Shown one piece after another: positions 25,780 to 47,901 of a DNA stretch of 64,000 nt. Positions within the stretch are counted from its first letter, which is position 1. Each line of letters begins with the position of its first letter. This stretch comes from Acidobacteriaceae bacterium (GTDB lineage Bacteria > Acidobacteriota > Terriglobia > Terriglobales > Acidobacteriaceae): positions 992,001 through 1,056,000 of the forward strand of contig JAPWKE010000003.1 in assembly GCA_028283655.1 (NCBI GenBank), read 5' to 3'. A program made the translations under genes and the position numbers. Under the pieces are notes generated by a model. It was given only the letters and a program-made list of their open reading frames with translations. It was not told the DNA's origin and did no database searches.

Positions 25780-25787
25780 GTCACAGA

Positions 25788-28481: not shown

Positions 28482-28513
28482 AAGAAGGCGCTCAGAGGAG
28501 CGCCTTCTTCTTT
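28482..28513 (+). terminator. Terminator between the regulators and flgB
   Basis: AAGAAGGCGCTC, loop AGAG and GAGCGCCTTCTT form a 12-bp stem followed by CTTT, separating the regulatory genes from the structural operon. Confidence 0.85.
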
Positions 28514-28528
28514 GGCCGAAGACATGCA
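28513..28528 (+). promoter_or_regulatory. Predicted sigma-54 promoter of the flgB operon
   Basis: TGGCCGAAGACATGCA carries GG at -24 and GC at -12 with the required 12-nt spacing. A transcription start near 28539 would give a 24-nt leader that includes the ribosome site AAAGGGGA before flgB. The gene just upstream encodes a GAFTGA activator. Confidence 0.6.
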
Positions 28529-28562
28529 TGAAGTGTGTAGCGAAAGGGGACGTTGCCAAGCC

Positions 28563-28928
28563 ATGCAAATTGGATCGCATTTGAGTGAAGCGTTGGGGCG
28601 CTTCCTTGACCTGACGAACGACCAGATGAAGCTGACTGCTTCCAACCTGGCGAATGTCGATACGCCCGGTTATAAGACGCAGGGGATGAACTTTGCCCAG
28701 GCATTTCAGGATGCTATGCACGGCATTGACTCTGGCGCTGCGGCGAACGCTGGTGAGCATGTCTTCAACGTTGACGGGTTGGTGTCGAGGCCGGATGGCA
28801 ACAATGTGTCGATGGATCGGGAGAGTCTTGATCTGGCGAAGGAGCAGTTGCAGTTTCGTACAGGCGTGGAGTTGCTGAAGCGTGAGTACTCGCGAACCAT
28901 GTCGGCAATTCATGCGGATTCGAAGTAA
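28563..28928 (+). CDS. flgB: Flagellar proximal rod protein FlgB
   Basis: The 121-residue protein forms the lowest rod segment with FlgC, F and G. The signature SNLANVDTPGYKTQGMNFA near residue 30 is the conserved rod/hook N-terminal helix, and the C-terminal helix (ELLKREYSRTMSAIHADSK) pairs with it. The length fits FlgB (about 130). I chose ATG 28563, preceded by AAAGGGGA; the frame extends back through the promoter. It begins the first structural operon. Confidence 0.93.
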   Translation: MQIGSHLSEALGRFLDLTNDQMKLTASNLANVDTPGYKTQGMNFAQAFQDAMHGIDSGAAANAGEHVFNVDGLVSRPDGNNVSMDRESLDLAKEQLQFRTGVELLKREYSRTMSAIHADSK

Positions 28929-28940
28929 GGGAGAGAGCGG

Positions 28941-29417
28941 ATGAACCTGTTCGGTGTGATGGATGTGAGTGGCTCGGCGTTGAAGGCAGAACGGGTGCGC
29001 GCGGAAGTTGTTGCCGCGAATATGGCCAATGCCGAGACGACTCGCACGGCGGACGGAACGCCTTATAAACGGCAGCAGGTTGTCTTTGAAAGCTCGGGTG
29101 CAACGACTGCGTTTGGTGATGTGTTGCGCGGGCAGCCAGGAGTGCACTTTGCGTCGATGGGTACACCTTCGGCTGCGGGAGCGATTCCGGGTGGTGTGGC
29201 GGTGAGCGGTGTGGTGGACGATACTTCGGCTCCGCTGATGCGGTATGAGCCGGGGCATCCGGATGCGGACGCGAATGGGTATGTGGCGTATCCGAATATT
29301 AATCCGCTCACCGAGATGGTGGATCTGATGGGAGCGACACGCGCTTACGGAGCGAATGCGAGTGCGTTGCAGGCGGAGAAGAACATGATGAACGCTTCGC
29401 TGGATATTTTGAAGTAA
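28941..29417 (+). CDS. flgC: Flagellar proximal rod protein FlgC
   Basis: The 158-residue protein has the FlgC N-terminus (FGVMDVSGSALKAERVRAEV, then NMANAETTRT) and the C-terminal motif YPNINPLTEMVDLMGATRAY that ends in NMMNASLDILK. It builds the rod with FlgB and sits 12 nt after it, with GGGAGAGAG as ribosome site. The length matches the family, and no insertion is seen. Confidence 0.93.
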   Translation: MNLFGVMDVSGSALKAERVRAEVVAANMANAETTRTADGTPYKRQQVVFESSGATTAFGDVLRGQPGVHFASMGTPSAAGAIPGGVAVSGVVDDTSAPLMRYEPGHPDADANGYVAYPNINPLTEMVDLMGATRAYGANASALQAEKNMMNASLDILK

Positions 29418-29434
29418 GACCTAGGGGATAGACG

Positions 29435-29737
29435 ATGATTCATCCGGTTTCGAGCGCGATTACGAGCGCGATACAACAGGCAGCGACACAAGCGCAGACA
29501 GAGCAGACTGCCGCGGCGACTCCGTTTGCTGGTGTTTTTCATTCGATGGTGCAGGAGACGTCGAGCCTGGAGACGAAGGCGAATGAGGCTGTTACGGGCT
29601 TGATGAATGGCTCGGGTGTTGAAGTGCATGACGCAATGATCGCGACACAGAAGGCGGATATGAGTTTCGAGTTGGCGTTACAGGTAAGGAACAAAGCCGT
29701 TGCGGCGTATCAGCAAATGATGAATATGCAGTTCTAG
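29435..29737 (+). CDS. fliE: Flagellar hook-basal body protein FliE
   Basis: The 100-residue FliE connects the MS ring to the rod and is the first axial substrate of the export apparatus. The C-terminal half carries the family motif GSGVEVHDAMIATQKADMSFELALQVRNK (split here across residues 58-86) and the final YQQMMNMQF. The length fits. It lies 17 nt after flgC and ahead of fliF in the classical order. Confidence 0.92.
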   Translation: MIHPVSSAITSAIQQAATQAQTEQTAAATPFAGVFHSMVQETSSLETKANEAVTGLMNGSGVEVHDAMIATQKADMSFELALQVRNKAVAAYQQMMNMQF

Positions 29738-29783
29738 CAGCAGATCGTATTAGTGACGCATTTCACCAAAGGGATATAGATCA

Positions 29784-31523
29784 GTGGCAGAGCAGCAGGG
29801 ACAACAAAGTGCGGAGTTGATGACGCAGCCGGGAGTAGGCGGTGGTGTGGCTCAGGCTGTTCATCTGATGAACCGTGCGCGTGCCATATGGGCGGGGATG
29901 CCGCAGTCGAAGCGCACGAAGTTGATTCTGGCTGGAGCTGTGATGGTTGCAGCGTGTGCGCTGGTGAGCTGGTGGGGAACTCGCACGGAGTGGAAGACGC
30001 TGTACTCAGGGCTTGAGGTTCGTGACCTGCAGCAGGTTGAGTCTGAGCTGGCAGCGGCGGGCATCACGTATGAGACGACGCAGGATGGAAGCGGCGTTGA
30101 GGTTCCGGTGGCATTGCTTGACAAGGCTCGGATGGAAGTGGCCGCGAAGGGAACACCGCAGTCGGGGCGAATGGGCTTTGAGCTCTTCGATAAACCGAAC
30201 TGGGTTGGTTCAGAGTTCGATGAGAAGGTGAATTATCAGCGCGCTCTTGAGGGCGAGTTGGAGCATACGATTGCGACGATCAGCGCGGTTCGCTCTGCGC
30301 GCGTACATCTTGTGATGCCGAAAGATTCGTTGTTCAGCGATGGACAGAAGCCTGCGAAGGCTTCCGTCGTGCTGAAGCTAAAGAGGTCGACTCTGCAGAA
30401 GGAAGAGATTGAGTCGATACGGAGTTTCGTGGCAAGTGCGGTGGATGGGCTGCAGCCGGATCAGGTTACGCTGATCGACGCGGATGGGCGGGTCAACCTG
30501 AACTCTGTTGCGGCGAATGCGCAGTCGAGTGATGAAGAGCAAGCGCTTTCTGACAAGCTGGTGGCGATGCTCGAGCCATTGGCGGGTAGAGAGAATGTGC
30601 GCGCGACGGTGAATATTGCCTATGACCAGAGCTCGCAGGAGCGCACGGATGAGGTTGTGGACCCGACTCAGGTGGTGGCGGTGCAGACGCAGAAGAGCGT
30701 GCAGCAGGCCGGTGCAGGAGCGGGACATCCGCAAGGTGTTCCGGGGACGGCGAGCAATACACCCATTACTGCGGATAAGGATGGCAAGGCCCAGCTGCCG
30801 GTGTATCCGGCTTCCGCAGCACAGCAGCAGAATGCAAGCGAAGAGAGTTCTACGTTCGCGGTGACGAAGCATACGACGCACGAAGCTGTCGGACCGGGGC
30901 GGGTGGCAAGGGTTACGGCTGCGGTGCTGATCAACGATCGTGCTTTGACGGAAGGTGCGGGCAAGGGCTCGCATAGAGTATGGCGGCCTCGCACGATTGA
31001 TGAGATGAAGCGGTTGGAGGAGTTAGCACGAGCGGCGGTGGGCTTCGAGGAAAAGCGTGGCGATTCTGTGGTGCTGCAAAATATTGCGTTCACTGGAAAT
31101 GCTCCAGAGCCTGTGGTGACGGGTTGGGAGAAGACGAGCGGCGAGTTGAAGGAGGTGCTTCGCTCACAACCTGAGCTGCTGAAGAATGTCGGTGGTGCGT
31201 TGCTGGCTGTGTTGATGATTCTGCTGGTCGTACGTCCAGTGGCAAAGTCAACGATGACGATGCTGAGTGAGGCGAAGGCTTTACCTGGTGCGGTCGGCAC
31301 TCGTGTGGATGCGTCGTCACGAGTGGAGTTGCAGGACGAGTTGCCGGAGCTTGAGGCGTCTCGATCTGCGGCGCATGCTTTGCCGGGAGTGGAGATTCGC
31401 AAATCTCAGGCGGCGATCGATGCCGAAGGCGTACTTGAGTACGTCACGGCGCATGTGAAGCGTGATCCTCAGCAGACGACACGTCTGTTGGAGGCCTGGA
31501 TTGGTGGAAAGGAACGGTCGTAG
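29784..31523 (+). CDS. fliF: Flagellar MS-ring protein FliF
   Basis: The 579-residue protein forms the inner-membrane MS ring. It has two membrane helices, near residues 48-66 (ILAGAVMVAACALVSWW) and about 470-488 (VGGALLAVLMILLVV), flanking a large periplasmic part with the secretin-like ring-building motifs (LYSGLEVRDLQQVESELAAA; GRMGFELFDKPNW). The C-terminal cytoplasmic tail (about 520-579) is the FliG-binding segment. Translation starts at GTG 29784, and fliG begins 3 nt after its stop. The length is typical. Confidence 0.95.
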   Translation: MAEQQGQQSAELMTQPGVGGGVAQAVHLMNRARAIWAGMPQSKRTKLILAGAVMVAACALVSWWGTRTEWKTLYSGLEVRDLQQVESELAAAGITYETTQDGSGVEVPVALLDKARMEVAAKGTPQSGRMGFELFDKPNWVGSEFDEKVNYQRALEGELEHTIATISAVRSARVHLVMPKDSLFSDGQKPAKASVVLKLKRSTLQKEEIESIRSFVASAVDGLQPDQVTLIDADGRVNLNSVAANAQSSDEEQALSDKLVAMLEPLAGRENVRATVNIAYDQSSQERTDEVVDPTQVVAVQTQKSVQQAGAGAGHPQGVPGTASNTPITADKDGKAQLPVYPASAAQQQNASEESSTFAVTKHTTHEAVGPGRVARVTAAVLINDRALTEGAGKGSHRVWRPRTIDEMKRLEELARAAVGFEEKRGDSVVLQNIAFTGNAPEPVVTGWEKTSGELKEVLRSQPELLKNVGGALLAVLMILLVVRPVAKSTMTMLSEAKALPGAVGTRVDASSRVELQDELPELEASRSAAHALPGVEIRKSQAAIDAEGVLEYVTAHVKRDPQQTTRLLEAWIGGKERS

Positions 31524-31526
31524 AAG

Positions 31527-32606
31527 ATGACAGGAACAATGACGCAGTCGCAGCAGGTGTTTCAACCTTTATTGCTGCCAGTGGATGCAGGGTTTACACC
31601 GTCTGATTTGCCGGGAGTAAAGAAGGCCGCAATCTTGCTGTTGGCCGTCGGCAACGATATTGCGAAAGAGATGCTGCAGCAACTAAGCGAGCGTGATGTT
31701 CAGCGTGTGACCGAAGAGATTACTAAGCTGCAGGACGTGCCTGCTCCTTTGCTGACGCAGGTTGTCACTGAGTTCTATGGCTTGTTGGAGACGCAGCAGT
31801 ACATGGTTCGCGGAGGCCGTTTGTATGCTGAGCGAGTGTTGACGGATGCGTTTGGCGAGAAGCGCGCCAAGGACCTGTTGAACGAAGTGCGAGAGTTGCA
31901 GGAACGTTCGACGGGCGATATTGCGGTATTGCGTGAGATGGATCCGCAACAGCTAAGCAAGTTTCTGGAGAATGAACATCCGCAGACGATTGCGCTGGTG
32001 CTTGCTCATCTTGAGCCGCAGAAAGGTTCCATGCTGTTGATGTCACTGAAGCCACAGCTGAGAGTGGATACGGTGCGACGGCTAGCGGAGATGCGACAGT
32101 TTTCTCCGGAGATGGCTTCGAAGGTTGCTTTGATTCTCGCCAAGCGTATGGATGCTCTCGGATCGAGTGGACGCCGCTCGTACTCGGGGTTCAAGTCTGT
32201 TGCTGAGTTGCTGAATCGCATGGACCAGAATGCAAGCCGTTCAATTCTGGAGGGCATCGAGCAGACAGAACCAAAGCTGGCTATCGGAATTCGCGACCTG
32301 ATGTTTACGTTCGATGACCTGTTGACCGTGCCGCAGACGGGGATTCGAGAGATTCTTTCCGCAGTGGATAAGCGGATTCTTGCGACAGCGCTGAAGGGGT
32401 CGAAGGAAAATGTTCGCGTTCATCTTTGCGCGGCGATGAGTTCTCGTGCGGTGGAGATGCTGGAAGAAGATATGGAAGCGATGGGACCGGTAAGGGCAAA
32501 GGACGTTACCGCCGCGCAGCAGGAGTTACTGGCTGTTGCGCGAAACCTGGAGACGGAAGGCAAGATCGTACTCCGCATGGAGAGTGAAAATGACTACGCC
32601 GTTTGA
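31527..32606 (+). CDS. fliG: Flagellar motor switch protein FliG
   Basis: The 359-residue protein sits on the MS ring and converts stator force to torque. It has an N-terminal FliF-binding domain (DLPGVKKAAILLLAVGNDIA), the middle-domain EHPQTIALVLAHLEP motif near residue 155 that contacts FliM, and a C-terminal domain with the charged torque helix near residues 280-300. It overlaps the start of fliH by 17 nt, indicating translational coupling. Confidence 0.95.
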   Translation: MTGTMTQSQQVFQPLLLPVDAGFTPSDLPGVKKAAILLLAVGNDIAKEMLQQLSERDVQRVTEEITKLQDVPAPLLTQVVTEFYGLLETQQYMVRGGRLYAERVLTDAFGEKRAKDLLNEVRELQERSTGDIAVLREMDPQQLSKFLENEHPQTIALVLAHLEPQKGSMLLMSLKPQLRVDTVRRLAEMRQFSPEMASKVALILAKRMDALGSSGRRSYSGFKSVAELLNRMDQNASRSILEGIEQTEPKLAIGIRDLMFTFDDLLTVPQTGIREILSAVDKRILATALKGSKENVRVHLCAAMSSRAVEMLEEDMEAMGPVRAKDVTAAQQELLAVARNLETEGKIVLRMESENDYAV

Positions 32607-33240
32607 TTCGCCTTCTGAGAGCGAAGTGATAGCGCTGCAGTTCGAAGAGTGGAGTGAGAGTGTTGGGCCTTCCTTCGTGGACGCGCAAGAACTTGCGAAC
32701 GCAGCCGCCGAACGTGACGTATTGACGTCTGAGTTCCAGCAGGAGCTTGCTGTGCGAGTGGAAGAAGCTCGCGAAGCTGCAAGGCACGAGGCTCATGAGG
32801 CGGGCGAGCAGCGTATTCACGATGCGATTGAAATTGAGCGAACGGCTGTTGCTATGGCTTGCGCCGGGTTTGCGAAAGCCCGCGAGCGTTACTTCAATGA
32901 GATTGAATTGGAAGTGGTCAAGCTGTCGCTATCTATTGCGGAACGGGTGCTGCACCGTGAGGTGATGATGGATGCGACGCTGCTTGCGGGTGTCGTTCGA
33001 GTCGCGCTGGCGAAGTTGAGTAGTGCGGATGGTGTGGTGCTATTTGTTCCTGCTGATGATGCTGAGGAGTGGCGCAAGGCAATGAAGCTGACTGAACTTC
33101 AGGTTCAGGGTGATGATTTGCTTCGTCGTGGCGATGTTCGCTTGCAGACGACCGCTGGCGTTGCTGAGCTTGGATTGAAGCCGCAGTTGGCGGAGATTGA
33201 ACGCGGGTTTTTCGATCTGCTTTCGAAGAGGCATGCCTAG
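32590..33240 (+). CDS. fliH: Flagellar export ATPase regulator FliH
   Basis: The 216-residue protein has a glutamate-rich helical N-terminal half (EFQQELAVRVEEAREAARHE) and a C-terminal domain (about 115-216) resembling V-type ATPase subunit E, with ERVLHREVMMD and VRVALAKL. It holds FliI inactive until docking at the export gate. I chose ATG 32590 inside the fliG end; longer frames begin within fliG. The position between fliG and fliI is decisive because sequence conservation is low. Confidence 0.85.
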   Translation: MTTPFDSPSESEVIALQFEEWSESVGPSFVDAQELANAAAERDVLTSEFQQELAVRVEEAREAARHEAHEAGEQRIHDAIEIERTAVAMACAGFAKARERYFNEIELEVVKLSLSIAERVLHREVMMDATLLAGVVRVALAKLSSADGVVLFVPADDAEEWRKAMKLTELQVQGDDLLRRGDVRLQTTAGVAELGLKPQLAEIERGFFDLLSKRHA

Positions 33241-33243
33241 GCA

Positions 33244-34557
33244 ATGGCCTTTGAACCACATCTCGGTTTGTTTGAATCACGGTTGAAGAACTCTCCTTCC
33301 TGGTTTTGGCAAGGCAGGATCGTGTCTGCCAGCGCCCAGACGGTAGAGAGTCTTGGGCCGCCGTGTTCGTTGGGGGAGGTGTGTGAACTGGTGGGATCGG
33401 ATGGTATTCGGTACGAAGCTGAGGTGATCGGGTTTCGTGGTGATCGAGTTGTCATGATGCCGCTGATGACATGCAATGGTGTTCGCCATGGCGATGCGGT
33501 TCGTGCGCTAGGACGGGCTGCGGAGATTGGTATGGGCGCGTCCATGCTGGGGCGAGTGATGGACGCTGTCGGACGTCCTATGGATGGGCGTGGGCCGTTG
33601 GCGATAACGAAGTCCGCACTGCTGGATGGGAATGTGCCGGATGCTATGGACCGGGTTCCGATCAGCGAGCCGCTACGTACTGGTGTTCGTGCGATTGACG
33701 CGATGTTGACGGTTGGGCGTGGTCAACGTGTGGGACTCTTCGGTGGGTCGGGTGTAGGAAAAAGCACGTTGATCGGAATGATGACACGCAATACCTCTGC
33801 AGATGTGACCGTGGTGGGATTGGTAGGGGAGCGCGGGCGCGAGGTGAGGGAGTTCCTGGAAGATTCACTTGGTGAAGAGGGTCTTAAACGTTCGGTGGTC
33901 TTCGTTTCGACATCGGACCAGTCAGCACTCTTGCGCATGAGGGCGGCGCAGGCGGCGACGGCGGCGGCGGAGTTCTATGCATCGCAAGGGATGAACGTGT
34001 TGTTGGTGTTGGACTCCCTGACGCGCTATGCGATGGCTGCTCGTGAGGTGGGGTTGGCGGCAGGCGAGCCTCCAACGAGTAAGGGGTATACGCCGAGTGT
34101 GTTTTCGCGTCTGGCGAAGTTGGTGGAGCGTGCTGGCAGGTTTGAGCACGGTAGCATTACGGCTTTCTATACGGTGCTGATGGAAGGAGACGATCAGCAG
34201 GATCCGATCGTCGATAGCGTGCGTTCGTATGTGGATGGCCATGTTGTTCTGTCGCGTGAACTGGCTTCGCAGGGGTGGTATCCGCCGATTCAGGTGCTTG
34301 ATTCGCTGAGCCGCACGATGCCTGCTGTGACGACCAAAGAGCATCGTGCCAAGGTGAGCGAGGTTAGGAGACTGATGGCCGCTCATGAACGATCAGCGGA
34401 CCTTGTTCGAATGGGCGCTTATGCTGCCGGTGCAGACCGAGAGCTTGATCGCGCGATTGCTGCGTTGCCTCTGATCAAAGCGTTTCTATCGCAGGATTTG
34501 GGTGAGTCTCCGCTGGTGGAGGAGACGATGGCACGACTGGAGCGGCTGGCGTTATGA
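33244..34557 (+). CDS. fliI: Flagellum-specific export ATPase FliI
   Basis: The 437-residue ATPase unfolds and feeds substrates into the flagellar export gate. Walker A is GLFGGSGVGKSTLI near residue 174, Walker B is in VLLVLDSLTRYAMAAREVGLA near residue 258, and the C-terminal ring domain follows. The N-terminal beta barrel (LGPPCSLGEVCELV) is present. fliJ starts at the stop with an ATGA overlap. It is full length. Confidence 0.95.
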   Translation: MAFEPHLGLFESRLKNSPSWFWQGRIVSASAQTVESLGPPCSLGEVCELVGSDGIRYEAEVIGFRGDRVVMMPLMTCNGVRHGDAVRALGRAAEIGMGASMLGRVMDAVGRPMDGRGPLAITKSALLDGNVPDAMDRVPISEPLRTGVRAIDAMLTVGRGQRVGLFGGSGVGKSTLIGMMTRNTSADVTVVGLVGERGREVREFLEDSLGEEGLKRSVVFVSTSDQSALLRMRAAQAATAAAEFYASQGMNVLLVLDSLTRYAMAAREVGLAAGEPPTSKGYTPSVFSRLAKLVERAGRFEHGSITAFYTVLMEGDDQQDPIVDSVRSYVDGHVVLSRELASQGWYPPIQVLDSLSRTMPAVTTKEHRAKVSEVRRLMAAHERSADLVRMGAYAAGADRELDRAIAALPLIKAFLSQDLGESPLVEETMARLERLAL

Positions 34558-35018
34558 GCTTTACGTTGCAGCAGATGGAACGGTTGAAGCGTCTGCGGCA
34601 AGCACAGGAACGTATGCAGGAAGCAGCGTTAGCTGTAGCCCGGCGAGAGGTTACTGCAGCCGAAGAGCGGCTGCTTGCTCTGCGTCTGAAGAGAGATTCG
34701 TGGCAACGCGAGGGGCGAAGCGAATTGCAGGAAGGGCGATGCGAGGAGTGGAGAGTCGCCGAAGGATCTAGTGTGCTGACAGAGATGCAGGACGCCGTAC
34801 TGCAGCAAATATTGCAGGACCGAAAGGCGCAAGAAGCAAGCGCGCTTGAGGTGCTGTTGCTGCGTAAAGTTGCTACGGAGCAAGTTGTAATGATTGACGA
34901 AAAAATGCGCGAGGCCCTGAAGAAAGAGGGCGAGCGCAGAGAGCAGAATGTCAGCGATGATCGCTTTGCGGCGAGGACGTTCTGGGCCGATCATCGTGAA
35001 CGGGTAGCAGAGTTGTAG
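34554..35018 (+). CDS. fliJ: Flagellar export chaperone/stalk protein FliJ
   Basis: The 154-residue protein is predicted as one long antiparallel coiled coil (LQQMERLKRLRQAQERMQ ... KMREALKKEGERREQNVSD), like FliJ, the central stalk of the FliI hexamer. Sequence identity across the family is very low, so the call rests on coiled coil, length, and place after fliI with an ATGA overlap. The terminal TFWADHRERVAEL is rich in Arg and Glu. Confidence 0.8.
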   Translation: MSFTLQQMERLKRLRQAQERMQEAALAVARREVTAAEERLLALRLKRDSWQREGRSELQEGRCEEWRVAEGSSVLTEMQDAVLQQILQDRKAQEASALEVLLLRKVATEQVVMIDEKMREALKKEGERREQNVSDDRFAARTFWADHRERVAEL

Positions 35019-35058
35019 AGTTCTGAAGCTGCGTTAATTCTTTACCAGGTGACATGGC

Positions 35059-36603
35059 ATGGAATGTGCATGTGGTCTGTGCGGAGGGATCGAGGTGCAG
35101 ATCACAAGCTCAATGCGGGGTGGAAGCAGTAAGGTGTCCAGCACCATGGATGCAGTGGCAACGGCTGGCTCAACAGCTACAGACGATAGGGGCAACGGAG
35201 CAGGTAAGTCGTTCTCTGATGTTGCGGTCGCAGCGGGTCTTGTCCATGAGAAAGATGCGGCTTCTAACGCTCAGAAAACCTTGCCGGATTCGAAACCTAG
35301 TACGGACAATAAGCAGATAGCTGTTTCTGTGCCCAAGACGGAGCCTGTGGATAAGCTGGCTTCGCCTGAAGTGGATCCTCTTGATCGTGCTGATGTTGAG
35401 CCGAAGGATTTGAAACAAGATGGAGATGTCACCGCAGAGAATGCCACGAAAAACGTAGTGGCGAATGAAGAAGTAGAAGAGATTCCGTTGGATGTATCTG
35501 TAGATGCTTCGCGGGATACAGAAGACGTTTCTGACAGGATTGAAACGGGTTCTCAGGCCGTTCCTCTGCGTAAGAAAGAGGGCGTAAGCGGAAAGAAAGA
35601 CGTTCCCGCAGCGGGCGTAAAGCATCGCCCAGGTGGGCATAACTTGACGCCGGATTCTAAGGCCTCGACGTCTGCGGGAGATGTCTCGATTGCTTCGCCT
35701 GCTACGGATGCGACGCCGGCGTCTGTCGCGACCCCTAACCTTGCCGCGATAGATAACATTGGACCTTTGAAGCTGGAAGGCGCTCCTATTGCTGCTCCCT
35801 CGGTTACTTCTGAGCCATTAGTTGGAGTCAAGAGCTTGGTGTTTGATCCTCCGCAAGTGGTGAAAGGCTTGAAGACAGCTGCGCCGGATGCTCTGCCTTC
35901 GGCTAGTATGCCTGCCGAGCAGAAAACGAGCGTTAGTGCAGGGTCAGATCCAAGCGCTCATCACGAAGATTCGGCTGTCGTATCCAACACTGCGGAGAGA
36001 GGGAGCCACGTTCCTTTTGATGTGGCCCCCTTTGCTGTGAACGGAAGCAGCTTGCGGCTGCAGAGCGGGGCAACTATGGCAAGTGATCGAACGTTTCCTG
36101 TTGCATCAGACATAGATAGCAAGCCGCTTCGGCTGCATGGTTTCGAAAGCTCCACACCGAATCAACTTGAGGTGGGTATCAGTGGTGGCACGCTTGGTTG
36201 GGTGAGCGTTCGAGCGGAACTGAAAGACGGTGATGTTCATGCGGTGTTGCGTAGCTCTGTGGAAGCGACGGCGCAGCTCCATGCACAGAGCTCAGAGCTG
36301 CGGAGCTTTCTGAGCGAACAGCATTCGCCTGTGACTCAACTTCATATTGAAGCGACTCGGGTGGCTGCCGCGACGGCTTCCGGAAACCAGCATGACGCCG
36401 CAACAGGTAGTGGGGCGGGGGGAGAGCAGGCTGATCAAAGGCAGACTCGTCGAGAGCAGGTGCGTCGTGTCTCGGATCTCTCTATGTTCTCCAATGAAAG
36501 TGATGAAGAGTCCACGCAGATTGTTAGCGATGCATTAGGAAATACGGCGCTCACTGGCAGATTAGTTGCAGACACAGGTGGTTGGTTGAGCGTGCGTGTG
36601 TAG
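35059..36603 (+). CDS. fliK: Flagellar hook-length control protein FliK
   Basis: The 514-residue protein is mostly an unstructured, Ser/Asp/Glu/Val-rich ruler region (residues 30-370), followed by a folded C-terminal hook-length domain (about 371-430) with GGTLGWVSVRAELKDGDVHAV, FLSEQHSPVTQLHIEAT and a Gln-rich tail. The ruler measures hook length and switches substrate specificity at FlhB. ATG 35059 has AGGTGA six nt upstream; ATGs at 35054 and 35064 open other frames and are unlikely. Two Cys pairs in the first 10 residues (ECACGLCGG) are odd for a ruler and might reflect a later true start. Confidence 0.82.
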   Translation: MECACGLCGGIEVQITSSMRGGSSKVSSTMDAVATAGSTATDDRGNGAGKSFSDVAVAAGLVHEKDAASNAQKTLPDSKPSTDNKQIAVSVPKTEPVDKLASPEVDPLDRADVEPKDLKQDGDVTAENATKNVVANEEVEEIPLDVSVDASRDTEDVSDRIETGSQAVPLRKKEGVSGKKDVPAAGVKHRPGGHNLTPDSKASTSAGDVSIASPATDATPASVATPNLAAIDNIGPLKLEGAPIAAPSVTSEPLVGVKSLVFDPPQVVKGLKTAAPDALPSASMPAEQKTSVSAGSDPSAHHEDSAVVSNTAERGSHVPFDVAPFAVNGSSLRLQSGATMASDRTFPVASDIDSKPLRLHGFESSTPNQLEVGISGGTLGWVSVRAELKDGDVHAVLRSSVEATAQLHAQSSELRSFLSEQHSPVTQLHIEATRVAAATASGNQHDAATGSGAGGEQADQRQTRREQVRRVSDLSMFSNESDEESTQIVSDALGNTALTGRLVADTGGWLSVRV

Positions 36604-36624
36604 GCAAGCTACGAAAGGGAAACG

Positions 36625-36903: not shown

Positions 36904-36937
36904 CGAATGCGCAACTGCGCGGAGAGAAGGAAGCAAG

Positions 36938-38164: not shown

Positions 38165-38180
38165 AACGGTGCGGATAGCA

Positions 38181-38217: not shown

Positions 38218-38250
38218 GTTTAGCGATTGCTAAGAAAATGCGGCAGGAGT

Positions 38251-38266: not shown

Positions 38267-38278
38267 TTTGAAGAAGGC

Positions 38279-39111: not shown

Positions 39112-39115
39112 TGAG

Positions 39116-40332: not shown

Positions 40333-40343
40333 GAGCAAGGACG

Positions 40344-40613: not shown

Positions 40614-41368
40614 GCGAGTGGGAGCACATTCTTAGCGCGGGCGTGCTCGTGCTGTTTCGGTTGAGTGGGCTGTTTGTGTTTGCACCAATCTTTTCTTCGC
40701 CTGCGATCGCTTCGCGCATCAAGGTTGGATTTGCGTTTGCGATGGCGATCCTGGTTGCTCCGGGGATTGCTGTTGCGAGCGGTGCTGTTGCGGAGCTTGG
40801 AGTGAGCAATATACTCGGCGAGCTTGCTGTTGGTCTGCTCTTCGGCGTAAGCCTGATGATGCTGACCGAAGCTGTCATGTTTGCGGGAACACTGCTGGGA
40901 ATGCAGTTTTCCTTCTCACTGGTGAACCTGATTGACCCGGTGAGCAAGGTGGAAACGCCGGTGCTGGGGCAGATGTTGAGTTGGATGACGACACTCATCT
41001 TGCTTGGCGCAGGCTTACACCGCACGTTAATTGCTGCTGTTCTGCGAAGCTTTGACGTTATCCCGGTGGGGACCTTTGCTATGTCTGCCGCGAGTGGTGC
41101 GAAGCTGGCGCACATGGCCTCTGGAACTTTTCTTGCGGGCGTGCAGTTAGCTTCGCCGGTGATGGCGGCGGCCTTGCTGGTAGAGATAACCATCGCGTTG
41201 ATGGGGAGGATCTCACCGCAGTTGCCGACGACGATTCTGAGCGTTCCGGTGAAGACGATCGTATCTTACGGAGTTCTCATGGGATCGCTTGCGATCTGGC
41301 CTGGATTCTTAGAACGCCATTTTGATTCGCTGCTGAGCGCGGCTGCTGGATTGCTCGGACAAGGGTAA
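40610..41368 (+). CDS. fliR: Flagellar export gate protein FliR
   Basis: The 252-residue protein has about six helices and the FliR motifs LFRLSGLFVFAPIFSSPAIASRIKVG near residue 13 and GMQFSFSLVNLIDPVSKVETPVLGQ near 95. One copy caps the FliP/FliQ ring. I chose ATG 40610, which overlaps the fliQ stop. The length is in the normal range. Confidence 0.94.
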   Translation: MSEWEHILSAGVLVLFRLSGLFVFAPIFSSPAIASRIKVGFAFAMAILVAPGIAVASGAVAELGVSNILGELAVGLLFGVSLMMLTEAVMFAGTLLGMQFSFSLVNLIDPVSKVETPVLGQMLSWMTTLILLGAGLHRTLIAAVLRSFDVIPVGTFAMSAASGAKLAHMASGTFLAGVQLASPVMAAALLVEITIALMGRISPQLPTTILSVPVKTIVSYGVLMGSLAIWPGFLERHFDSLLSAAAGLLGQG

Positions 41369-41390
41369 GCAGTGTCCTGAAGCGAGACAG

Positions 41391-42530
41391 ATGAGCGAGC
41401 AACGCACAGAAAAAGCAACGCCACAACGAAAGAAGAAGGCACGCGAGCAAGGTGACGTGGTGCGTAGCCGCGAACTGCTTTCGAGCGCAGGTCTTCTGGT
41501 GGGTTTGCTGGCGTTAGCGGCGGCAAGTTCCGCATTCACGAATGCATGGCGGCAGTGCTACGGACGCTGTGTACGGCTGGCGGTGAGTGGCAGCTTTGGT
41601 CTGCGCGAGTTGATGACGGTAGTTCGCACTGCGTTGCTGCCCGCAGCCGTACCGATTGCGATGGTAATGGGGGCGTCTCTTCTGACGGTTCTGGCTGTGG
41701 GGTTCGCGCAGAGCGGCGGGCTTGCGCTGAACTCCAGTGCGCTTGTGCCAAAGCTGGAGAGGTTGAGCCCGGCCTCGCATATCAAGCAGTTGTTCAGTGT
41801 GCGCGCGCTTGTGCGCCTGGCAAAGTCATTGCTGCCTGCTTTGGTCGTGGCGTGGATGGGGTGGGCCGTGCTTGGACGCATGATGACCACAATGCCGGTG
41901 CTCAGTCTGGCGCGGCTTCCTGAGACGTTTGGTGCGGCGTATGGACTGGGACTGAAGGCCGCTTGGGTGATGGTGGCGTGGGCCGGGGTGGACTACGCGG
42001 TGGAGTGGAGAGCGTGGAACCAGCGGCTGAAGATGTCGAAGCAGGAGATGCGTGAAGAAGTAAAAGACGCGATGGGCAACCCGCAGATAAAGGGGAAGAT
42101 TCGCGCGATGCAACGCACGATGGCCCGCCGGAAAGCCAAAGTTGATATGCGTCTAGCAAGCGTTGTGATCACAAACCCGACGCATTATGCCGTAGCCCTT
42201 GAGTTTTCGTTTGAAGAGATGTCGGCACCGAAGGTGTTGACGAAGGGCCGCGATCTGATTGCGTTGGACATTCGTGCTGAGGCAAAGGCTGCTGGTGTGC
42301 CAATCGTCGAAAACCCTCCACTGGCTCGGTCCTTGTATCGAGCGGTGGAGCCGGGGCAGTCGATCCCATATGACTTGTACTCGGCCGTGGCAGGCATTCT
42401 TGCGTTCCTGTTTCGCGAGCAGCAGGAACAGAAGATGCGAGACGAGAGACATGCGCAGCAGGCCCGTGCAGAACGGCAGCGTGAGCAGCAACTGGGGTCT
42501 TCCCCGATGCGTTTTGAAGGAGGGATGTAG
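41391..42530 (+). CDS. flhB: Flagellar substrate-specificity switch FlhB
   Basis: The 379-residue protein has four membrane helices and the cytoplasmic domain with the autocleavage site N262-P263-T264-H265 (VVITNPTHYAVAL), whose cleavage switches export from hook to filament proteins. The N-terminus EQRTEKATPQRKKKAREQGDV is the family signature. The flhA GTG overlaps its stop (TAGTG). The last 40 residues are Gln/Arg-rich. Confidence 0.96.
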   Translation: MSEQRTEKATPQRKKKAREQGDVVRSRELLSSAGLLVGLLALAAASSAFTNAWRQCYGRCVRLAVSGSFGLRELMTVVRTALLPAAVPIAMVMGASLLTVLAVGFAQSGGLALNSSALVPKLERLSPASHIKQLFSVRALVRLAKSLLPALVVAWMGWAVLGRMMTTMPVLSLARLPETFGAAYGLGLKAAWVMVAWAGVDYAVEWRAWNQRLKMSKQEMREEVKDAMGNPQIKGKIRAMQRTMARRKAKVDMRLASVVITNPTHYAVALEFSFEEMSAPKVLTKGRDLIALDIRAEAKAAGVPIVENPPLARSLYRAVEPGQSIPYDLYSAVAGILAFLFREQQEQKMRDERHAQQARAERQREQQLGSSPMRFEGGM

Positions 42531-44617
42531 TGGCTCAGGGTGGTATAGAGAAGAAGAACTGGAGCGCGTTATTGCTACCAGTCATCACGATCAGCATCGT
42601 GTTTGTGATGCTGATCCCTATTCCAGCGATGGTGCTGGATATGCTGCTGGCTGTTTCGATCTCTGCCTCGGTACTGGTGTTTCTGACAGCGATACGGATT
42701 CGTAAAGCCGTTGATCTTAGCGTGTTTCCTACGTTGTTGTTGCTGCTTACGCTTTTCCGTCTGGCGTTGAACCTGGCTTCGAGCCGAAGAATTTTGCTGC
42801 ACGGCCACGAAGGGACGGGTGCGGCTGGTTCTGTCATTGAAGCCTTCGGACAGTTTGTTGTTGGCGGCAACTACGTCGTTGGCTTTGTTCTCTTTCTGGC
42901 GCTTACGGCGATTCAGTTTCTTGTGATCAGCCATGGCGCTGTGCGTACGGCCGAAGTAACGGCGCGCTTCACGCTCGATGCTTTGCCGGGCAAACAGATG
43001 GCGATTGATGCCGACATGAACGCCGGGCTGATTGATGAGCAGGGCGCAAGAAAGCGGCGTGAAGCCATCGCTCGCGAGGCGGAGTTCTACGGTGCAATGG
43101 ATGGAGCCGCCCGCTTCTCGCAACGTGATGCGATGGCAACCATCCTGATCACGGCGATCAACATCATCGCAGGCTTGCTGATCGGCGTCTTCCAGCAGGG
43201 CGTGGATTTGATGACTGCGGTCAAAACGTACACGATCCTTACGGTTGGCGATGGACTTGTCACGATGGTGCCGAGCCTGCTGGTATCGATTGCCGGTGGG
43301 CTGATCCTGACTCGTGCCGCATCAAGCGGCAAGTTGGACAGCGACCTTGGCGCACAGCTTTTTCGCAGACGTACAACCATTTGGATCGCCTGTGGTGTGA
43401 TGTGCGCCCTGGCGTTAGTTCCTGGACTACCAAAGCTTGCGTTCCTCATCATGGCCGCGGCGTTGGCAATGTTCGCGCGGACGTTACCTGCAGAGTCTGC
43501 CACCGAGGCCGTGGAAGAAGTGACGGTGACGAAAGGCAAGCAGGAAGCAGAGGCCACAGCGAAAGCGGGACCTGATGAGCTGGGTTCACTGTTGCGCATG
43601 GATGAGCTGACGCTGGAGATTGGCTTTCAACTGATTCCGTTGGTTGACGAGAAGATGGGCGGCCAGATGTTGAATCGTGTGCGTGCTCTTCGCCGACATC
43701 TGGCTACGGAACTGGGATTCATTGTGCCCGCTGTGCACATCACAGACAACCTGCGGCTAAAGCCGCGTGAGTATGTGATCTCTCTACGTGGGACAGAGAT
43801 TGCTCGCTGGAGCACGGAGGGAGCCTGTCTGCTCGCCGTGAACGCTAATCCGAACGCTCGTGCGTTGCCTGGGGTCGAGACGGTAGAGCCTGCCTTTGGT
43901 GTGAAAGCTCGATGGATTCAACCGGGGCTGGAGGATCAGGCTTTGGCGTCGGGCTACTCGGTCGTGGACCAGGTGACCGTGATTGCAACGCATCTTGGAG
44001 AGCTGATCAAACGGCATTCGCATGAACTGCTGGGCCGGAATGAAACGAAACGTTTGCTGGACAGCATGAATGATTCGCATCCGAAGCTGGTGGAAGAACT
44101 TGTTCCCAAGCTGATGACGATGGGTGAAGTGCAAAAAGTGCTGCAGCAACTGCTGCGTGAAGGTGTTTCGATCCGCGATCTTGGAACGATTCTCGAGACG
44201 TTGGTGGAAGCCGCGCATGTGTCGAAGAGCGTGGTGCACCTGGTGGAGGGCTGTCGTCAGGCGCTCGGACGTGGGCTTGTTCGCAAGCTGCTGGATGGCG
44301 ATGGTGGACTTCGCGTGATGGTGATGCAACCGCAGTTGGAGCAGGAGATCGTGGGCACGTTTGATCCTGCCGCGGCACAGCGAATGTTAGGCGCACAGAA
44401 CGGTGGCGCGGGGGATGGGTTGAAGCGGCTGGTTGAATCTGTGAAATCACTAACCGCTTCGGGTGAGAGTTCGGCACTTCCCGTGCTCTTGTGTCCATCA
44501 CCGGCACGTTACCACCTGCGTCGGTGGCTGGAGCCTGTCTTGCCGAAGGTGACCGTGCTGTCCTCGCAGGAAATTCCACCAGACATAAAGGTGCGAAGCC
44601 TCGGAGCGTTGGGTTAG
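42530..44617 (+). CDS. flhA: Flagellar export gate protein FlhA
   Basis: The 695-residue protein has eight N-terminal membrane helices with LAVSISASVLVFLTAIRIRK and the FHIPEP-type segment KQMAIDADMNAGLIDEQGARKRR near residue 150, plus a large cytoplasmic domain (about 350-695) that docks export chaperones. The GTG start at 42530 overlaps the flhB stop. It is essential for type III export, and its length and order are normal. Confidence 0.96.
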   Translation: MAQGGIEKKNWSALLLPVITISIVFVMLIPIPAMVLDMLLAVSISASVLVFLTAIRIRKAVDLSVFPTLLLLLTLFRLALNLASSRRILLHGHEGTGAAGSVIEAFGQFVVGGNYVVGFVLFLALTAIQFLVISHGAVRTAEVTARFTLDALPGKQMAIDADMNAGLIDEQGARKRREAIAREAEFYGAMDGAARFSQRDAMATILITAINIIAGLLIGVFQQGVDLMTAVKTYTILTVGDGLVTMVPSLLVSIAGGLILTRAASSGKLDSDLGAQLFRRRTTIWIACGVMCALALVPGLPKLAFLIMAAALAMFARTLPAESATEAVEEVTVTKGKQEAEATAKAGPDELGSLLRMDELTLEIGFQLIPLVDEKMGGQMLNRVRALRRHLATELGFIVPAVHITDNLRLKPREYVISLRGTEIARWSTEGACLLAVNANPNARALPGVETVEPAFGVKARWIQPGLEDQALASGYSVVDQVTVIATHLGELIKRHSHELLGRNETKRLLDSMNDSHPKLVEELVPKLMTMGEVQKVLQQLLREGVSIRDLGTILETLVEAAHVSKSVVHLVEGCRQALGRGLVRKLLDGDGGLRVMVMQPQLEQEIVGTFDPAAAQRMLGAQNGGAGDGLKRLVESVKSLTASGESSALPVLLCPSPARYHLRRWLEPVLPKVTVLSSQEIPPDIKVRSLGALG

Positions 44618-44666
44618 AGGTCGTTAAGAGAAGTGCTTGCCGCAGATGGAGATGAAGGAGATGGGG

Positions 44667-45527
44667 ATGAGAGAGAGCATACGGGATGGCCAGGGGAACG
44701 GGTTCGCAGGTCTGCCGATAGACATTGCCAACTATGGCTATGCGGCGACAGTGCCAGTCGTGCTGAACCAGCAGCCTGCTGCTTCGCTGGAGGCTGAGAG
44801 TGCGGAGCGTGATCGGCTGCTGCTGGAGCATTTGCCTACAGTCCGCTATATCGCGCGCCGTATTCATGAGCGTTTGCCGCAGCATGTGGAGCTCGATGAT
44901 CTGGTGTCTGCAGGGGTCGTCGGGTTGATCGACGCGTTTGGCAAGTTCGATCACACAAAGAAGGTGCAGTTCAAGAGTTACGCTCAGTTTCGTATCCGCG
45001 GGGCCATCCTTGATTCGTTGCGGATGTTGGATTGGAGCCCGCGCGAGTTGCGGCGTAAGGGCCGTGCCGTGGAAGAGGCTATCCGTACAGCGACGCAACG
45101 GCTGGGGCGCGCGCCGAAGGAAGAAGAGGTTGCTGCGCAGATGAGCGTGACGCTTGAGGTCTATCAGCAGCTTCTTGGCGACCTGAAAGGGCTGGAGATC
45201 GGCAGTTTGCATGTTGAGCGAACGGAAGATTCTGGCGATGAAGAGCTGGCTTACATCCCCGGTGATCCGGAAGAGGATCCTCTCTTCCGTTGCATGAAGA
45301 GTGAGATGCGCCAGCGTCTTGCGGACGCGATCGATGACCTGCCGGAGAAGGAGCGCATGGTTCTGACGCTCTATTACTTTGAGGAGCTGACGATGAAGGA
45401 GATTGGCCTGACGCTGGGTGTCGTCGAGTCACGCATCTCGCAGATTCACTCTTCGGCGGTGGTGCGGCTGCGAACCGCTCTGGGAGCTGCGTCTACGAGC
45501 AAGCTGGTCGTTGCAAAGAAGCGATAA
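44667..45527 (+). CDS. fliA: Flagellar sigma factor FliA (sigma-28)
   Basis: The 286-residue sigma factor should transcribe late genes (flagellin, chemotaxis) and be held by FlgM until the hook is complete. It has region 2 (PQHVELDDLVSAGVVGLIDA; VQFKSYAQFRIRGAILDSLR), region 3 (RRKGRAVEEAIR) and region 4 (EKERMVLTLYYFEELTMKEIG). I chose ATG 44667, since AAGGAG is 6 nt upstream; earlier in-frame starts reach TTG 44637. A clear flgM lies downstream at 52253. Confidence 0.92.
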   Translation: MRESIRDGQGNGFAGLPIDIANYGYAATVPVVLNQQPAASLEAESAERDRLLLEHLPTVRYIARRIHERLPQHVELDDLVSAGVVGLIDAFGKFDHTKKVQFKSYAQFRIRGAILDSLRMLDWSPRELRRKGRAVEEAIRTATQRLGRAPKEEEVAAQMSVTLEVYQQLLGDLKGLEIGSLHVERTEDSGDEELAYIPGDPEEDPLFRCMKSEMRQRLADAIDDLPEKERMVLTLYYFEELTMKEIGLTLGVVESRISQIHSSAVVRLRTALGAASTSKLVVAKKR

Positions 45528-45536
45528 GAGGAACGT

Positions 45537-46526
45537 ATGGAGAGTATGGACGGGCGTGCCAGGCCGGAAGAGGTGAGCGCGGAGGTGGTGCAAGCCGCTC
45601 CTTATAACTTTGCGCGTTCCGGGCAGATTTCGAACGATCAGATGCGGGCCATTGCGATGGTCAACGATGGCATTGCGCGCAACCTTACGCATACGCTTGG
45701 AGCCTGGTTGCGATCGCAGGTGCAAGTGGCTCTCGCGGCAACAGAGCAGATGACATATGCGGAGTACCTGGAGTCATTGCCTGAGCCATCGTACATTTGC
45801 TTGCTTCGACTTGAACCGCTGGGTGGCGTTGGGCTGTTGGAGCTGGAGTTGCCGCTGGCGTTGTCGATGATTGATGTCCTGATGGGGGGCAAAGGGTCGA
45901 CGGAGCAAGCGAGAGATGTCACGGATATTGAAGAGGCCATACTTGGCTCGGTACTTTCGGTGGTGATGCGGGAGTTGAACGGTGCCTGGGAAACGGTTGG
46001 ATTACGTTTTGCTTCAGAGAAAAGAGAGTCTGCGGCTCATATCTCGCGCTTGATGCAGGCTAGTGAGCGGATGTTGCTGATCTCCTTTGACGTCCAGTTG
46101 CAGGAGACTACGGCGCGGCTAAAGCTTTGTCTGCCGACCGTGGTGCTGAATACGATTCACCGCCGCTTGATGGCTGTTCGGGAGCAGCCACGCAGAAACT
46201 TTGAGGCAAGCGGAGCTCGCGTCACGGAGTTACTGGGCAAGGCACAGCTTCGAGCTGTGTTGCAGTTGCCTCCAACGAAGATAGCTTCTTCGGAGTTGCG
46301 CAACCTGAAGCCTGGGTATGTGCTGCGCTTCGACCTCCCACGGTTTACGGCGGCAGAGTTTGTGCTTGGAGGATTGAAGCTGTCGAACGCCGTTCCTGTC
46401 GGACGTGGCGAGCATCGTGGGGCGTTTCTACAGACCGCGACAGCGATGACGAAGCAAGAAGCAGAGAGTGAGATCGAAGTGGTGCAGGAACTGCCGGCAA
46501 GTGTGCAAGAAGGGGGCGCAGCATGA
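45537..46526 (+). CDS. fliM: Flagellar motor switch protein FliM
   Basis: The 329-residue C-ring protein has the middle CheC-like domain (LTHTLGAWLRSQVQVAL; SMIDVLMGGKG near 118) and C-terminal SpoA domain (EASGARVTELLGKAQLRAVLQLPP). The N-terminal EIDALL-type peptide that binds phosphorylated CheY is not visible; residues 1-35 read EEVSAEVVQAAPYNFARSGQ. The gene is 9 nt after fliA, outside the usual fliLMN order, and overlaps fliN by ATGA. Confidence 0.92.
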   Translation: MESMDGRARPEEVSAEVVQAAPYNFARSGQISNDQMRAIAMVNDGIARNLTHTLGAWLRSQVQVALAATEQMTYAEYLESLPEPSYICLLRLEPLGGVGLLELELPLALSMIDVLMGGKGSTEQARDVTDIEEAILGSVLSVVMRELNGAWETVGLRFASEKRESAAHISRLMQASERMLLISFDVQLQETTARLKLCLPTVVLNTIHRRLMAVREQPRRNFEASGARVTELLGKAQLRAVLQLPPTKIASSELRNLKPGYVLRFDLPRFTAAEFVLGGLKLSNAVPVGRGEHRGAFLQTATAMTKQEAESEIEVVQELPASVQEGGAA

Positions 46527-46798
46527 AGGATGAATTGGACGAATCGCTAGATGTGATGCTCGACATGGATGTTGAGGCATCGTTGCAGTTTGGGTCTTCA
46601 GAGATGAGTTTGCGTGAGGTGTTGGCCTTGGGCCCGGGAGATGTAGTGGAGCTGGATCGCCATGTTGCTGCGCCGGTGGATCTGGTCATTAGCGAACGTA
46701 TTGTGGCTCGTGGCGAGGTTGTGGTGGTGAAGGGGAACTTTGCCTTGCGTGTCACCGAAGTGCTTGCGCCACAGCTTCGGCTGGAGCGTGCGCAGTGA
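46523..46798 (+). CDS. fliN: Flagellar motor switch protein FliN (second copy)
   Basis: The 91-residue protein has the typical FliN sequence, with an acidic N-terminus (DELDESLDVMLDMDVEASLQ) and SpoA core SLREVLALGPGDVVELDRHV near residue 33, then PVDLVISERIVARGEVVVVK. It matches the motor FliN better than the protein at 38803. Its start overlaps the fliM stop, and its stop overlaps the next gene. Both FliN-like proteins could enter one C-ring. Confidence 0.92.
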   Translation: MKDELDESLDVMLDMDVEASLQFGSSEMSLREVLALGPGDVVELDRHVAAPVDLVISERIVARGEVVVVKGNFALRVTEVLAPQLRLERAQ

Positions 46799-47793
46799 GG
46801 ATGCCGGGGATGCGTTTGGGGGCCGCGAATGCAGAGAAGGCAATGGTTCCTCAGTTTGCGGACGAGTTGTTTGCTGAGGATGTGTGGAAGGCCTCCTGGT
46901 CGCCTTCTTCAGCAGCTCTAACGGTAGAACCTGTGGTGGCAGCTGGATTGCTTGCCGAAAGTGCTCGCGTCGTCTGCGGCCAAGAGGGATGCGCTTCTCG
47001 AAGTTCGTTCTGGAAGAAGAGCGGCAGGCCTGTGTTTGATGGCCGCTGGGTTTGTAGCAGTAGCTGCGCGAAACATCTTGTTGGAGAGATTGTGCGCAGG
47101 CAGAATCGAACTGCCAAGGCTCTTGAGGAGACGGGCACGCACAGGCATCGGATTCCTCTGGGGCTGCTGCTGGTGGATCTACAGCTAGTGACGCCGCTGC
47201 AGTTGCAGTGTGCGTTGGAGGCACAGCGTGCGGCTGGACGCGGTTTGATCGGCGACTGGTTGATGGATATATGCGGGGTCTCGCCGGAGAAGATTACGAA
47301 GGCGGTAGCGGCTCAGTGGAACCGGCCCGTCCTGTCGAACGTTAGCCTCACGGCAGAGAGCATGGCGCTGACTATGCCTGCGGTATTGCGGCAGGAAGCT
47401 CGAATGGCTCCGTTGCGACTGGCTGGTGGAAAGATTCTGTATGCGGCCTTCGCTGGTGCGGTGGACTACGCGGCATCTGTCGCATTGGAGCGCATGAACG
47501 GAGTTCGAGTTGAGTGTGGCTTGCTGTCGCAGATAGAGTTTTCACAGACTGAGGTGAGGCTGGATGCTGCAGATTCTGTGGAGTGCCGAGAGCTGACGTT
47601 TGAAGACTCCACTGATCTGGTCGAGCGAGTTGTAAAGGTTCTATTTCAGACTCAGCCTGTCGCATCGAAGTTGGTTCCAGTGCATGGCAAGTGGTGGCTG
47701 CGGATGTGGCTTGAGCGCCAGGCGTGGGGAGCGCGAGGGCCGATGCCGAAGAGCCCTGAAGATGTGCTGGATGTTGTGTTTCGTTCTACCTAG
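46795..47793 (+). CDS. Cys-motif plus MshEN-like domain protein in the motor operon
   Basis: I do not recognise a named family. The 332-residue protein starts at GTG 46795, overlapping the fliN stop. Four cysteines, C61, C66 (CGQEGC) and C87, C91 (CSSSC), could bind zinc. Residues about 118-175 match the MshEN/GspE N-terminal pattern (RIPLGLLLVDLQLVTPLQLQ), known in other proteins to bind cyclic di-GMP. No ATPase domain follows, and the C-terminal half has no recognised fold. As last gene of a C-ring operon it may couple a signal to the motor or to export; this is inference. Confidence 0.7.
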   Translation: MRMPGMRLGAANAEKAMVPQFADELFAEDVWKASWSPSSAALTVEPVVAAGLLAESARVVCGQEGCASRSSFWKKSGRPVFDGRWVCSSSCAKHLVGEIVRRQNRTAKALEETGTHRHRIPLGLLLVDLQLVTPLQLQCALEAQRAAGRGLIGDWLMDICGVSPEKITKAVAAQWNRPVLSNVSLTAESMALTMPAVLRQEARMAPLRLAGGKILYAAFAGAVDYAASVALERMNGVRVECGLLSQIEFSQTEVRLDAADSVECRELTFEDSTDLVERVVKVLFQTQPVASKLVPVHGKWWLRMWLERQAWGARGPMPKSPEDVLDVVFRST

Positions 47794-47810
47794 CTGAAGA
47801 GGTGCGTGAG

Positions 47811-47851
47811 AGGAGAAGTCATAAGGAAGTTCTTATGGCTTCTCCTTTTTC
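47811..47851 (+). terminator. Terminator after the fliL-to-MshEN operon
   Basis: AGGAGAAGTCATAAG (47811-47825) pairs with CTTATGGCTTCTCCT (47832-47846), 15 pairs including one T-G, around GAAGTT and followed by TTTTT. Confidence 0.88.
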
Positions 47852-47885
47852 CGCTTAAGGCGTTCTTAGCTGAGGCTTTGAGGTT

Positions 47886-47901
47886 TGGCTTGAGTCTTGC
47901 A
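47886..47901 (+). promoter_or_regulatory. Predicted sigma-54 promoter of the flgF operon
   Basis: TGGCTTGAGTCTTGCA has TGGC and TTGCA at the -24/-12 spacing. The expected transcription start is 47912, 2 nt before the flgF ATG, exactly the geometry seen at fliL. Confidence 0.75.

Follow-up and report, generated by a model that had tools for sequence, protein, structure and literature searches.

The flagellar genes in a 64,000-nucleotide stretch of the genome of an Acidobacteriaceae bacterium (GenBank assembly GCA_028283655.1, contig JAPWKE010000003.1, positions 992,001 to 1,056,000; this whole stretch is hereafter the window) appear to form a sigma-54 regulon transcribed from at least four -24/-12 promoters, ahead of flgB, fliK, fliL, and flgF, at which the work of an activator would be divided between two neighbouring genes. 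The closed complex of RNA polymerase and sigma-54 would be opened by an AAA+ activator without a helix-turn-helix (HTH) domain (27086–28441) and, because this protein has no HTH with which to bind DNA, the promoters would be selected by the adjacent OmpR/PhoB-type response regulator (26060–26803), bound as a head-to-tail dimer to an 11-bp repeat of the half-site CTNA directly upstream of the polymerase, at about -59/-48 on the usual sigma-54 numbering. Based on comparative sequence evidence, this account as a whole is given a probability of about 0.62.

Conserved sigma-54 promoters at the flagellar blocks

The comparison covered 73 loci from the Acidobacteriaceae, consisting of the window, the clusters of 30 genomes, and 42 further loci, with nine duplicates removed. 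Flagellar clusters of the kind present in the window are referred to as type A and a second kind found within the genus as type B. The 4.27 Mb genome that holds the window possesses an rpoN gene (PF00309, E 9.7e-14), on which the cluster is predicted to depend, and has four strong matches to the sigma-54 activator domain.

An initial annotation, made from the letters of the window, had proposed that three promoters with the motif TGGC-N8-TGCA each follow a hairpin terminator and precede the first gene of a flagellar block. All three were found on the forward strand exactly where they had been placed, for flgB at 28513–28528 (ATG at 28563), for fliL at 38251–38266 (ATG at 38279, 14 nt past the -12 C), and for flgF at 47886–47901 (ATG at 47914, likewise 14 nt past the -12 C), with GG and GC 10 nt apart, a T preceding GG, and a position at the gene start. 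The block-first genes and the GAFTGA activator gene ahead of flgB were also present as claimed. Amongst the loci of relatives, TGG-N9-TGC occurs 24–72 nt ahead of the estimated start in 20 of 26 loci for flgB, 33 of 34 for fliL, and 23 of 33 for flgF, and a looser core (GG-N10-GC) provides a site in nearly all loci. The same test at other genes of the cluster returned 0–15%, with the exception of flgC (7/26, 27%), where six of the seven sites are 70–72 nt upstream and thus within flgB. A conserved fourth element, overlooked in the initial annotation, precedes fliK (35055–35070, forward strand; GTG at 35095) and is present in 34 of 46 type A loci, when counted as TGG-N9-TGC with [CG]TNA at 21–22 nt upstream and the start of a long open reading frame (ORF) 24–75 nt downstream. 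The -24/-12 elements therefore recur across the family at the same gene starts, the loss of conservation that would have spoken against them was not seen, and the suggestion that the structural cluster is one sigma-54 regulon is well supported by promoter conservation, refined to at least four promoters.

Strong hairpins do precede the three proposed promoters on the forward strand, a terminator-like hairpin at 28484–28507 that overlaps the repeat described below (-19.4 kcal/mol, z -3.6), a second at 38178–38216 (-33 kcal/mol, z -8.5), and a third at 47810–47847 (-24.7 kcal/mol, z -6.3), though none was listed by a simple terminator scan; no hairpin was found ahead of the fliK promoter. A further match at 36555, before flgD, was rejected as a promoter on the basis of its lack of conservation (one of eight flgD loci with a site).

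A phased repeat upstream of the promoters

For a set of 74 promoters, de-duplicated and chosen without regard to CTNA (90 picks reduced to 85 and then to 74, with the removal of type B, the diverged genome G032, low-scoring rows, and rows ≥70% identical), CTNA begins 21–22 nt upstream of TGG in 67 promoters (300 dinucleotide shuffles; mean, 2.8; maximum, 7), including 14 of 16 for flgB, 33 of 35 for fliL, and 20 of 23 for flgF. A second half-site, [CT]TNA, occurs at 32–33 nt in 42 of the 74 (shuffles; mean, 5.4; maximum, 12), and the two are exactly 11 bp apart in 38 promoters (shuffles; mean, 0.1; maximum, 2), with no other distance found more than four times. In a 50-row alignment (A1) restricted to CTNA-bearing promoters, the invariance of CTNA is by construction.

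Within the window, all on the forward strand, the repeat consists of CTAA (28480) and CTCA (28491) upstream of flgB (28480–28494), TTTA (38219) and CTAA (38230) upstream of fliL (38219–38233), and CTTA (47854) and CTTA (47865) upstream of flgF (47854–47868), with a divergent version, CTGA (35023) and GTTA (35033), upstream of fliK (35023–35036). The proximal half-site of flgB is located in the loop of the hairpin and its distance to TGG is nonetheless kept. Promoters bearing the repeat extend to outer genera (genomes G123, G143, G006, G049, and G207). The phased repeat is very probably a functional element. A role as the enhancer of the activator itself was discarded, given that this protein lacks an HTH. 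The layout resembles the kind read by OmpR/PhoB-type regulators, a family that typically binds head-to-tail on direct repeats, as described in the available part of PMC8345958.

An activator without a DNA-binding domain and its neighbours

The activator (27086–28441, forward strand; Sigma54_activat, 2.4e-68) is a protein of 451 aa in which a receiver-like domain, an AAA+ domain with the GAFTGA motif, and the lid are followed by a stop. A Pfam search of this protein and of the type A activators tested identified no HTH family and, across 26 aligned type A relatives, the protein ends about 10 aa past the lid. Amongst 25 activators adjacent to flgB, 21 readable sequences end 171–188 aa after GAFTG, three belonging to type B end at 241–244 aa, and one is masked; the HTH is absent from 21/21 readable type A activators next to flgB and from 15/15 at the relic loci described below. 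The receiver-like domain matches Response_reg with an E-value of 0.0047, below the cut-off, and in the 26 type A relatives the phospho-acceptor position (D60) is invariant and the acidic pair is absent. The AAA+ part of the activator model aligns to FlrC and FleQ at a Z of about 30, in a VIA-align match list that is dominated by the AAA+ domain and barely tests the N-terminal part. Because it lacks a DNA-binding domain, the GAFTGA protein would belong to the type Ic activators and not to the classical enhancer-binding (NtrC-like) proteins.

The regulator (26060–26803, forward strand), with a receiver (Response_reg, 8.8e-27) and a winged helix (Trans_reg_C, 1.6e-24), is encoded just upstream of the activator in all 20 type A loci in which this could be tested; in one other locus the stretch began within the activator, and the diverged genome G032 also has the regulator. 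The receiver has kept its catalytic and phosphorylation residues, and TN[VI][VI]DVY[IV][NT]Y[LV]R is the sequence of the recognition-helix region in almost all of the 56 relatives compared. It is fairly likely that this regulator reads the CTNA repeat.

Between the regulator and activator genes is a gene for a protein of 87 aa (26808–27071, forward strand), referred to as the H-box protein, which is HisKA-like (HisKA_3 at an E-value of only 0.066), lacks the ATPase part, and is predicted to fold as a two-helix hairpin (pLDDT 84). Residues H30, Q34, and P35 are invariant in 25 relatives. A Foldseek search with the 87-aa model returned no match at E ≤ 0.001, which for a two-helix hairpin is uninformative. 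Other genera and families have H-box relatives of about 230–300 aa, and the two longer proteins tested (L197 and L203) match HisKA (E about 3e-5) and have no match to HATPase_c. No histidine kinase (DHp plus ATPase) is encoded with the activator, in a search that did not extend to the rest of the genome. The H-box protein is proposed as a phosphotransfer partner of the regulator and activator, and may pass phosphate to, or between, the two.

The second flagellar type and alternative explanations

Nine species of the same genus possess type B flagella, with an FlhA that is only 57–59% identical. All six type B clusters examined have, in order, a regulator, an HTH-less activator that ends 165 aa past GAFTG, a PAS-HisKA-HATPase kinase, and an HTH_8 activator, and the type B activator tested by Pfam has both HTH_8 (1.7e-12) and a full receiver. 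The clusters with two sigma-54 activators and a PAS kinase are those of G244, G174, G279, G291, G306, and G329 (L223–L228). The possibility that the regulator is exclusive to HTH-less flagellar activators and absent from type B was rejected, as 6/6 type B clusters carry one. As both types carry the regulator and the HTH-less activator together, the pairing itself is supported.

Several observations weigh against the division of labour proposed here. Type B clusters have the same pair (with a regulator 38–44% identical; 6/6) and, despite this, CTNA at 21–22 nt is found in none of the seven flgF sigma-54 promoters visible in type B; its own pair and its HTH_8 activator, however, make type B imperfect as a negative control. 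The recognition helix of type B (VYMKY[LV]R, compared to VY[IV][NT]YLR in type A) is consistent with a different DNA target and could explain the absence of CTNA. Further, the OmpR subfamily that best matches the regulator is large and its recognition helix resembles common ones, such that the regulator is linked to CTNA only by proximity, and the second half-site is confined to the 42 of 74 promoters. A profile that excluded this genome recovered, genome-wide at E ≤ 10, only the fliL and flgB promoters (E 0.22 and 0.29), which speaks for the account, but the matches are weak in E-value and pre-filtered, and the genome’s own flgF and fliK promoters were missed; the pre-filter left 150 candidates to be scored per genome, making misses likely. 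Lastly, a tether is not required, because HTH-less activators can act from solution.

An activator that works untethered, with the repeat bound by an unrelated factor or by a UP-element-like contact of the alpha C-terminal domain, is considered unlikely, though not without precedent. In the available text of PMC3930126 the Helicobacter pylori FlgR has no DNA-binding domain and activates from solution. The position of the repeat, for its part, is one at which alpha C-terminal domains commonly contact DNA. The repeat is nevertheless a specific CTNA and not an A-tract, and its absence from type B sigma-54 promoters (7/7) indicates that it is not a general feature of sigma-54 promoters in the genus. 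A less probable alternative is that the regulator on the repeat serves as a gate (a repressor or DNA bender) or solely as a recruiter of polymerase, with no contact to the AAA+ activator. Position and gene linkage are all that speak for the role of the regulator, as this explanation would have it, but the repeat is situated on the upstream side of the predicted sigma-54 footprint, much as an activator site would be, and its strict helical phasing with the -24 element suggests contact with the transcription complex.

It is very improbable that the sites are chance matches with the true promoters elsewhere. The bare motif is barely enriched, with nine matches to TGGC-N8-TGCA in the window (shuffle mean, 3.7; 3/100 shuffles reach nine) and 43 genome-wide matches to TGGC-N7-TTGCA compared to 36 for a reversed control, which is not a significant enrichment. 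The motif by itself is weak, and it is position and conservation that place the sites above chance; they recur at the same gene starts in diverged genera whose intergenic DNA is otherwise different, and they are accompanied by a second, phased element. The flgB, fliK, fliL, and flgF sites are, from this pattern, almost certainly sigma-54 promoters. A more extended form of the account with regulator and activator as partners is put forward tentatively, with odds slightly short of even: the regulator and the HTH-less AAA+ protein would form a two-protein enhancer-binding activator docked on the phased repeat directly upstream of the promoter, with no DNA loop to a remote enhancer. The module would also have been kept, aimed at fliA, after loss of the structural genes, and the sigma-54 mRNAs would be near-leaderless.

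Leaders and start codons

The starts that fall 27–31 nt after TGG (33 for fliL and 13 for flgF, the latter all at exactly 28 nt) are ATG in 46/46 cases and have a Shine-Dalgarno (SD)-like word in only 1/46, while amongst the 37 starts farther from TGG an SD is present in 35 and, for flgF, only 3/13 are ATG. These rows were not de-duplicated (four flgF rows, Terriglobus-like, are near-identical) and the choice of starts slightly favours ATG. Assuming a transcription start 12 nt past the -12 C, a predicted 5' end, the leaders of the short class would be 1–5 nt. Such a pattern is what leaderless translation would be expected to select for, and the mRNAs of fliL and of half of the flgF genes are quite probably near-leaderless. 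In the window, the fliL and flgF transcripts would start 0–3 nt before the ATG and be translated nearly without a leader, and the flgB and fliK transcripts would have leaders with an SD. As in the leaderless mRNAs reported from bacteria (PMC3616915 and PMC3847290), the ATG is at or near the predicted 5' end and the SD is absent; the Campylobacter jejuni cases were mapped to sigma-70 promoters (PMC3847290), whereas those here are predicted to be sigma-54 promoters, and the available parts of the two papers contain no sigma-54 leaderless case.

The module in genomes without the flagellum

The gene flhA is present in 13 and absent from 15 of 28 genomes of the same genus, while a close relative of the regulator is present in 21 of the 28. 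A phylogenetic profile in which the regulator tracks flhA was rejected on this basis, and the mismatch led to a set of relic loci. In the 18 regulator loci examined, the regulator, H-box protein, and HTH-less activator occur in a neighbourhood like that of the window, with fliA next after the activator wherever the stretch was long enough, the exception being G311 with flgB. All 15 readable activators from the relic loci end 173–174 aa past GAFTG. TGG-N9-TGC with [CT]TNA at 21–22 nt is present in the gap between the activator and fliA in 12/12 loci (11 CTNA and one TTNA), six from genomes with type B flagella and six from genomes without flhA (G259, G116, G252, G188, G325, and G321), two of the latter being 67–74% complete; these loci are independent of the 74-promoter set. 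In three of the genomes tested, flgM follows fliA.

Seven loci (L176, L181, L182, L187, L175, L174, and L173) have kept the regulator, H-box protein, activator, and fliA, some with flgM, without the type A structural genes. A dienelactone-hydrolase domain is encoded after the module in L187 and L182, as it is after flgL in the window. Beyond the family, the order of regulator, H-box protein, activator, and fliA or flgB recurs, though some loci lack the activator; L197 and L199, from an outer family (f5), have the regulator, H-box protein, and fliA with no match to a sigma-54 activator between them.

Layout of the cluster and extent of the regulon

The blocks are all on the forward strand. The block from flgB to flgE (28563–38164) has the fliK promoter within it. 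The fliL block (38279–47793) contains fliL, fliN, fliO, fliP, fliR, flhB, flhA, fliA (44637–45527), fliM, fliN, and an ORF of unknown function, and the flgF block (47914–55163) contains flgF, identified by gene order and homology, flgG, flgA, flgH, flgI, flgM (52253–52579), flgK, and a flgL-like gene. The ORF between fliN and flgF (46795–47793, 332 aa) is present in most clusters of relatives, and an ORF of 217 aa upstream of the regulator gene (25141–25794) is conserved in several genera; neither has a Pfam match. In many relatives, a TCCC-N3/4-GGGA or TTCCCGTTTTG-like stretch is located upstream of the regulator gene (25800–26060 in the window), a possible candidate site for a higher-level regulator.

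A composite pattern returned 10 matches in the genome, three of them the promoters, compared to seven in the control, and no further targets are claimed. The regulon seems to be centred on the flagellar cluster, though with low search sensitivity. TGG-N9-TGC with CTNA also occurs inside the 3' part of flhA (44450), upstream of fliA, and recurs in most relatives; it is located in conserved coding DNA and may reflect coding constraint or an internal fliA promoter. Because fliA and flgM are inside the sigma-54 blocks, flagellin would in turn be expressed via sigma-28. Elsewhere in the genome, the sigma-28-like sequence TAAA-N15-GCCGATA is located ahead of a fliD-like ORF next to fliC, which suggests a cascade from sigma-54 to sigma-28. 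At that locus (L195, genome C3 near 2075581), with flagellin and fliD-like genes and the sigma-28-like site, motA/motB-like ORFs are nearby on the opposite strand.

Significance and comparison with known systems

The textbook sigma-54 activator is a single protein with both a DNA anchor and an ATPase. If the account is true, the anchor and the ATPase would be separate genes, allowing loss of the HTH without loss of promoter choice, and it would answer how an HTH-less activator attains specificity in a genome with four strong activator-domain matches. It would also provide a defined flagellar cascade for the Acidobacteriota, abundant soil bacteria for which little regulatory literature was found. 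With the regulator, H-box protein, activator, fliA, and flgM retained in species that lack flhA, the role of a flagellar cascade without a flagellum becomes testable, and the ATG and SD pattern is a ready test case for sigma-54-driven leaderless translation. No literature combining an enhancer binding protein, sigma54, an OmpR family response regulator, and flagella was found, in a search that did not cover subscription papers.

The period of the pho box is 11 bp. The repeat shares with the PhoB box and OmpR-family repeats the direct orientation and the strict spacing to the core promoter (available parts of PMC10294691 and PMC8345958), and differs in being phased to a sigma-54 promoter, where the known examples act with sigma-70. 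The AAA+ domain is similar in structure to those of FlrC and FleQ, as noted above. Activators of the FlrC/FleQ/FlbD type carry a C-terminal HTH, unlike the activator in the window, and an HTH_8 protein of that kind is found in the type B cluster of the genus.

The type Ic activators, including CtcC, FlgR, and FleT, likewise have an AAA+ domain without a DNA-binding domain, and those lacking the DNA-binding domain, the signal domain, or both account for about 4% of activators (PMC3162934); the available text of that paper does not describe pairing with an OmpR-type gene and has no match to Acidobacteri*. The closest parallel in function is FlgS/FlgR of Helicobacter and Campylobacter, a flagellar sigma-54 regulon with an activator that lacks (H. 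pylori) or does not need (C. jejuni) a DNA-binding domain (PMC3930126, in the available text of which neither Acidobacteri* nor OmpR is matched). Compared to FlgS/FlgR, the cluster described here has a paired OmpR-type regulator gene and a phased 11-bp repeat at the flagellar sigma-54 promoters, the receiver of its activator lacks the acidic pair, and the place of a kinase is taken by an H-box protein in which no ATPase domain is recognisable.

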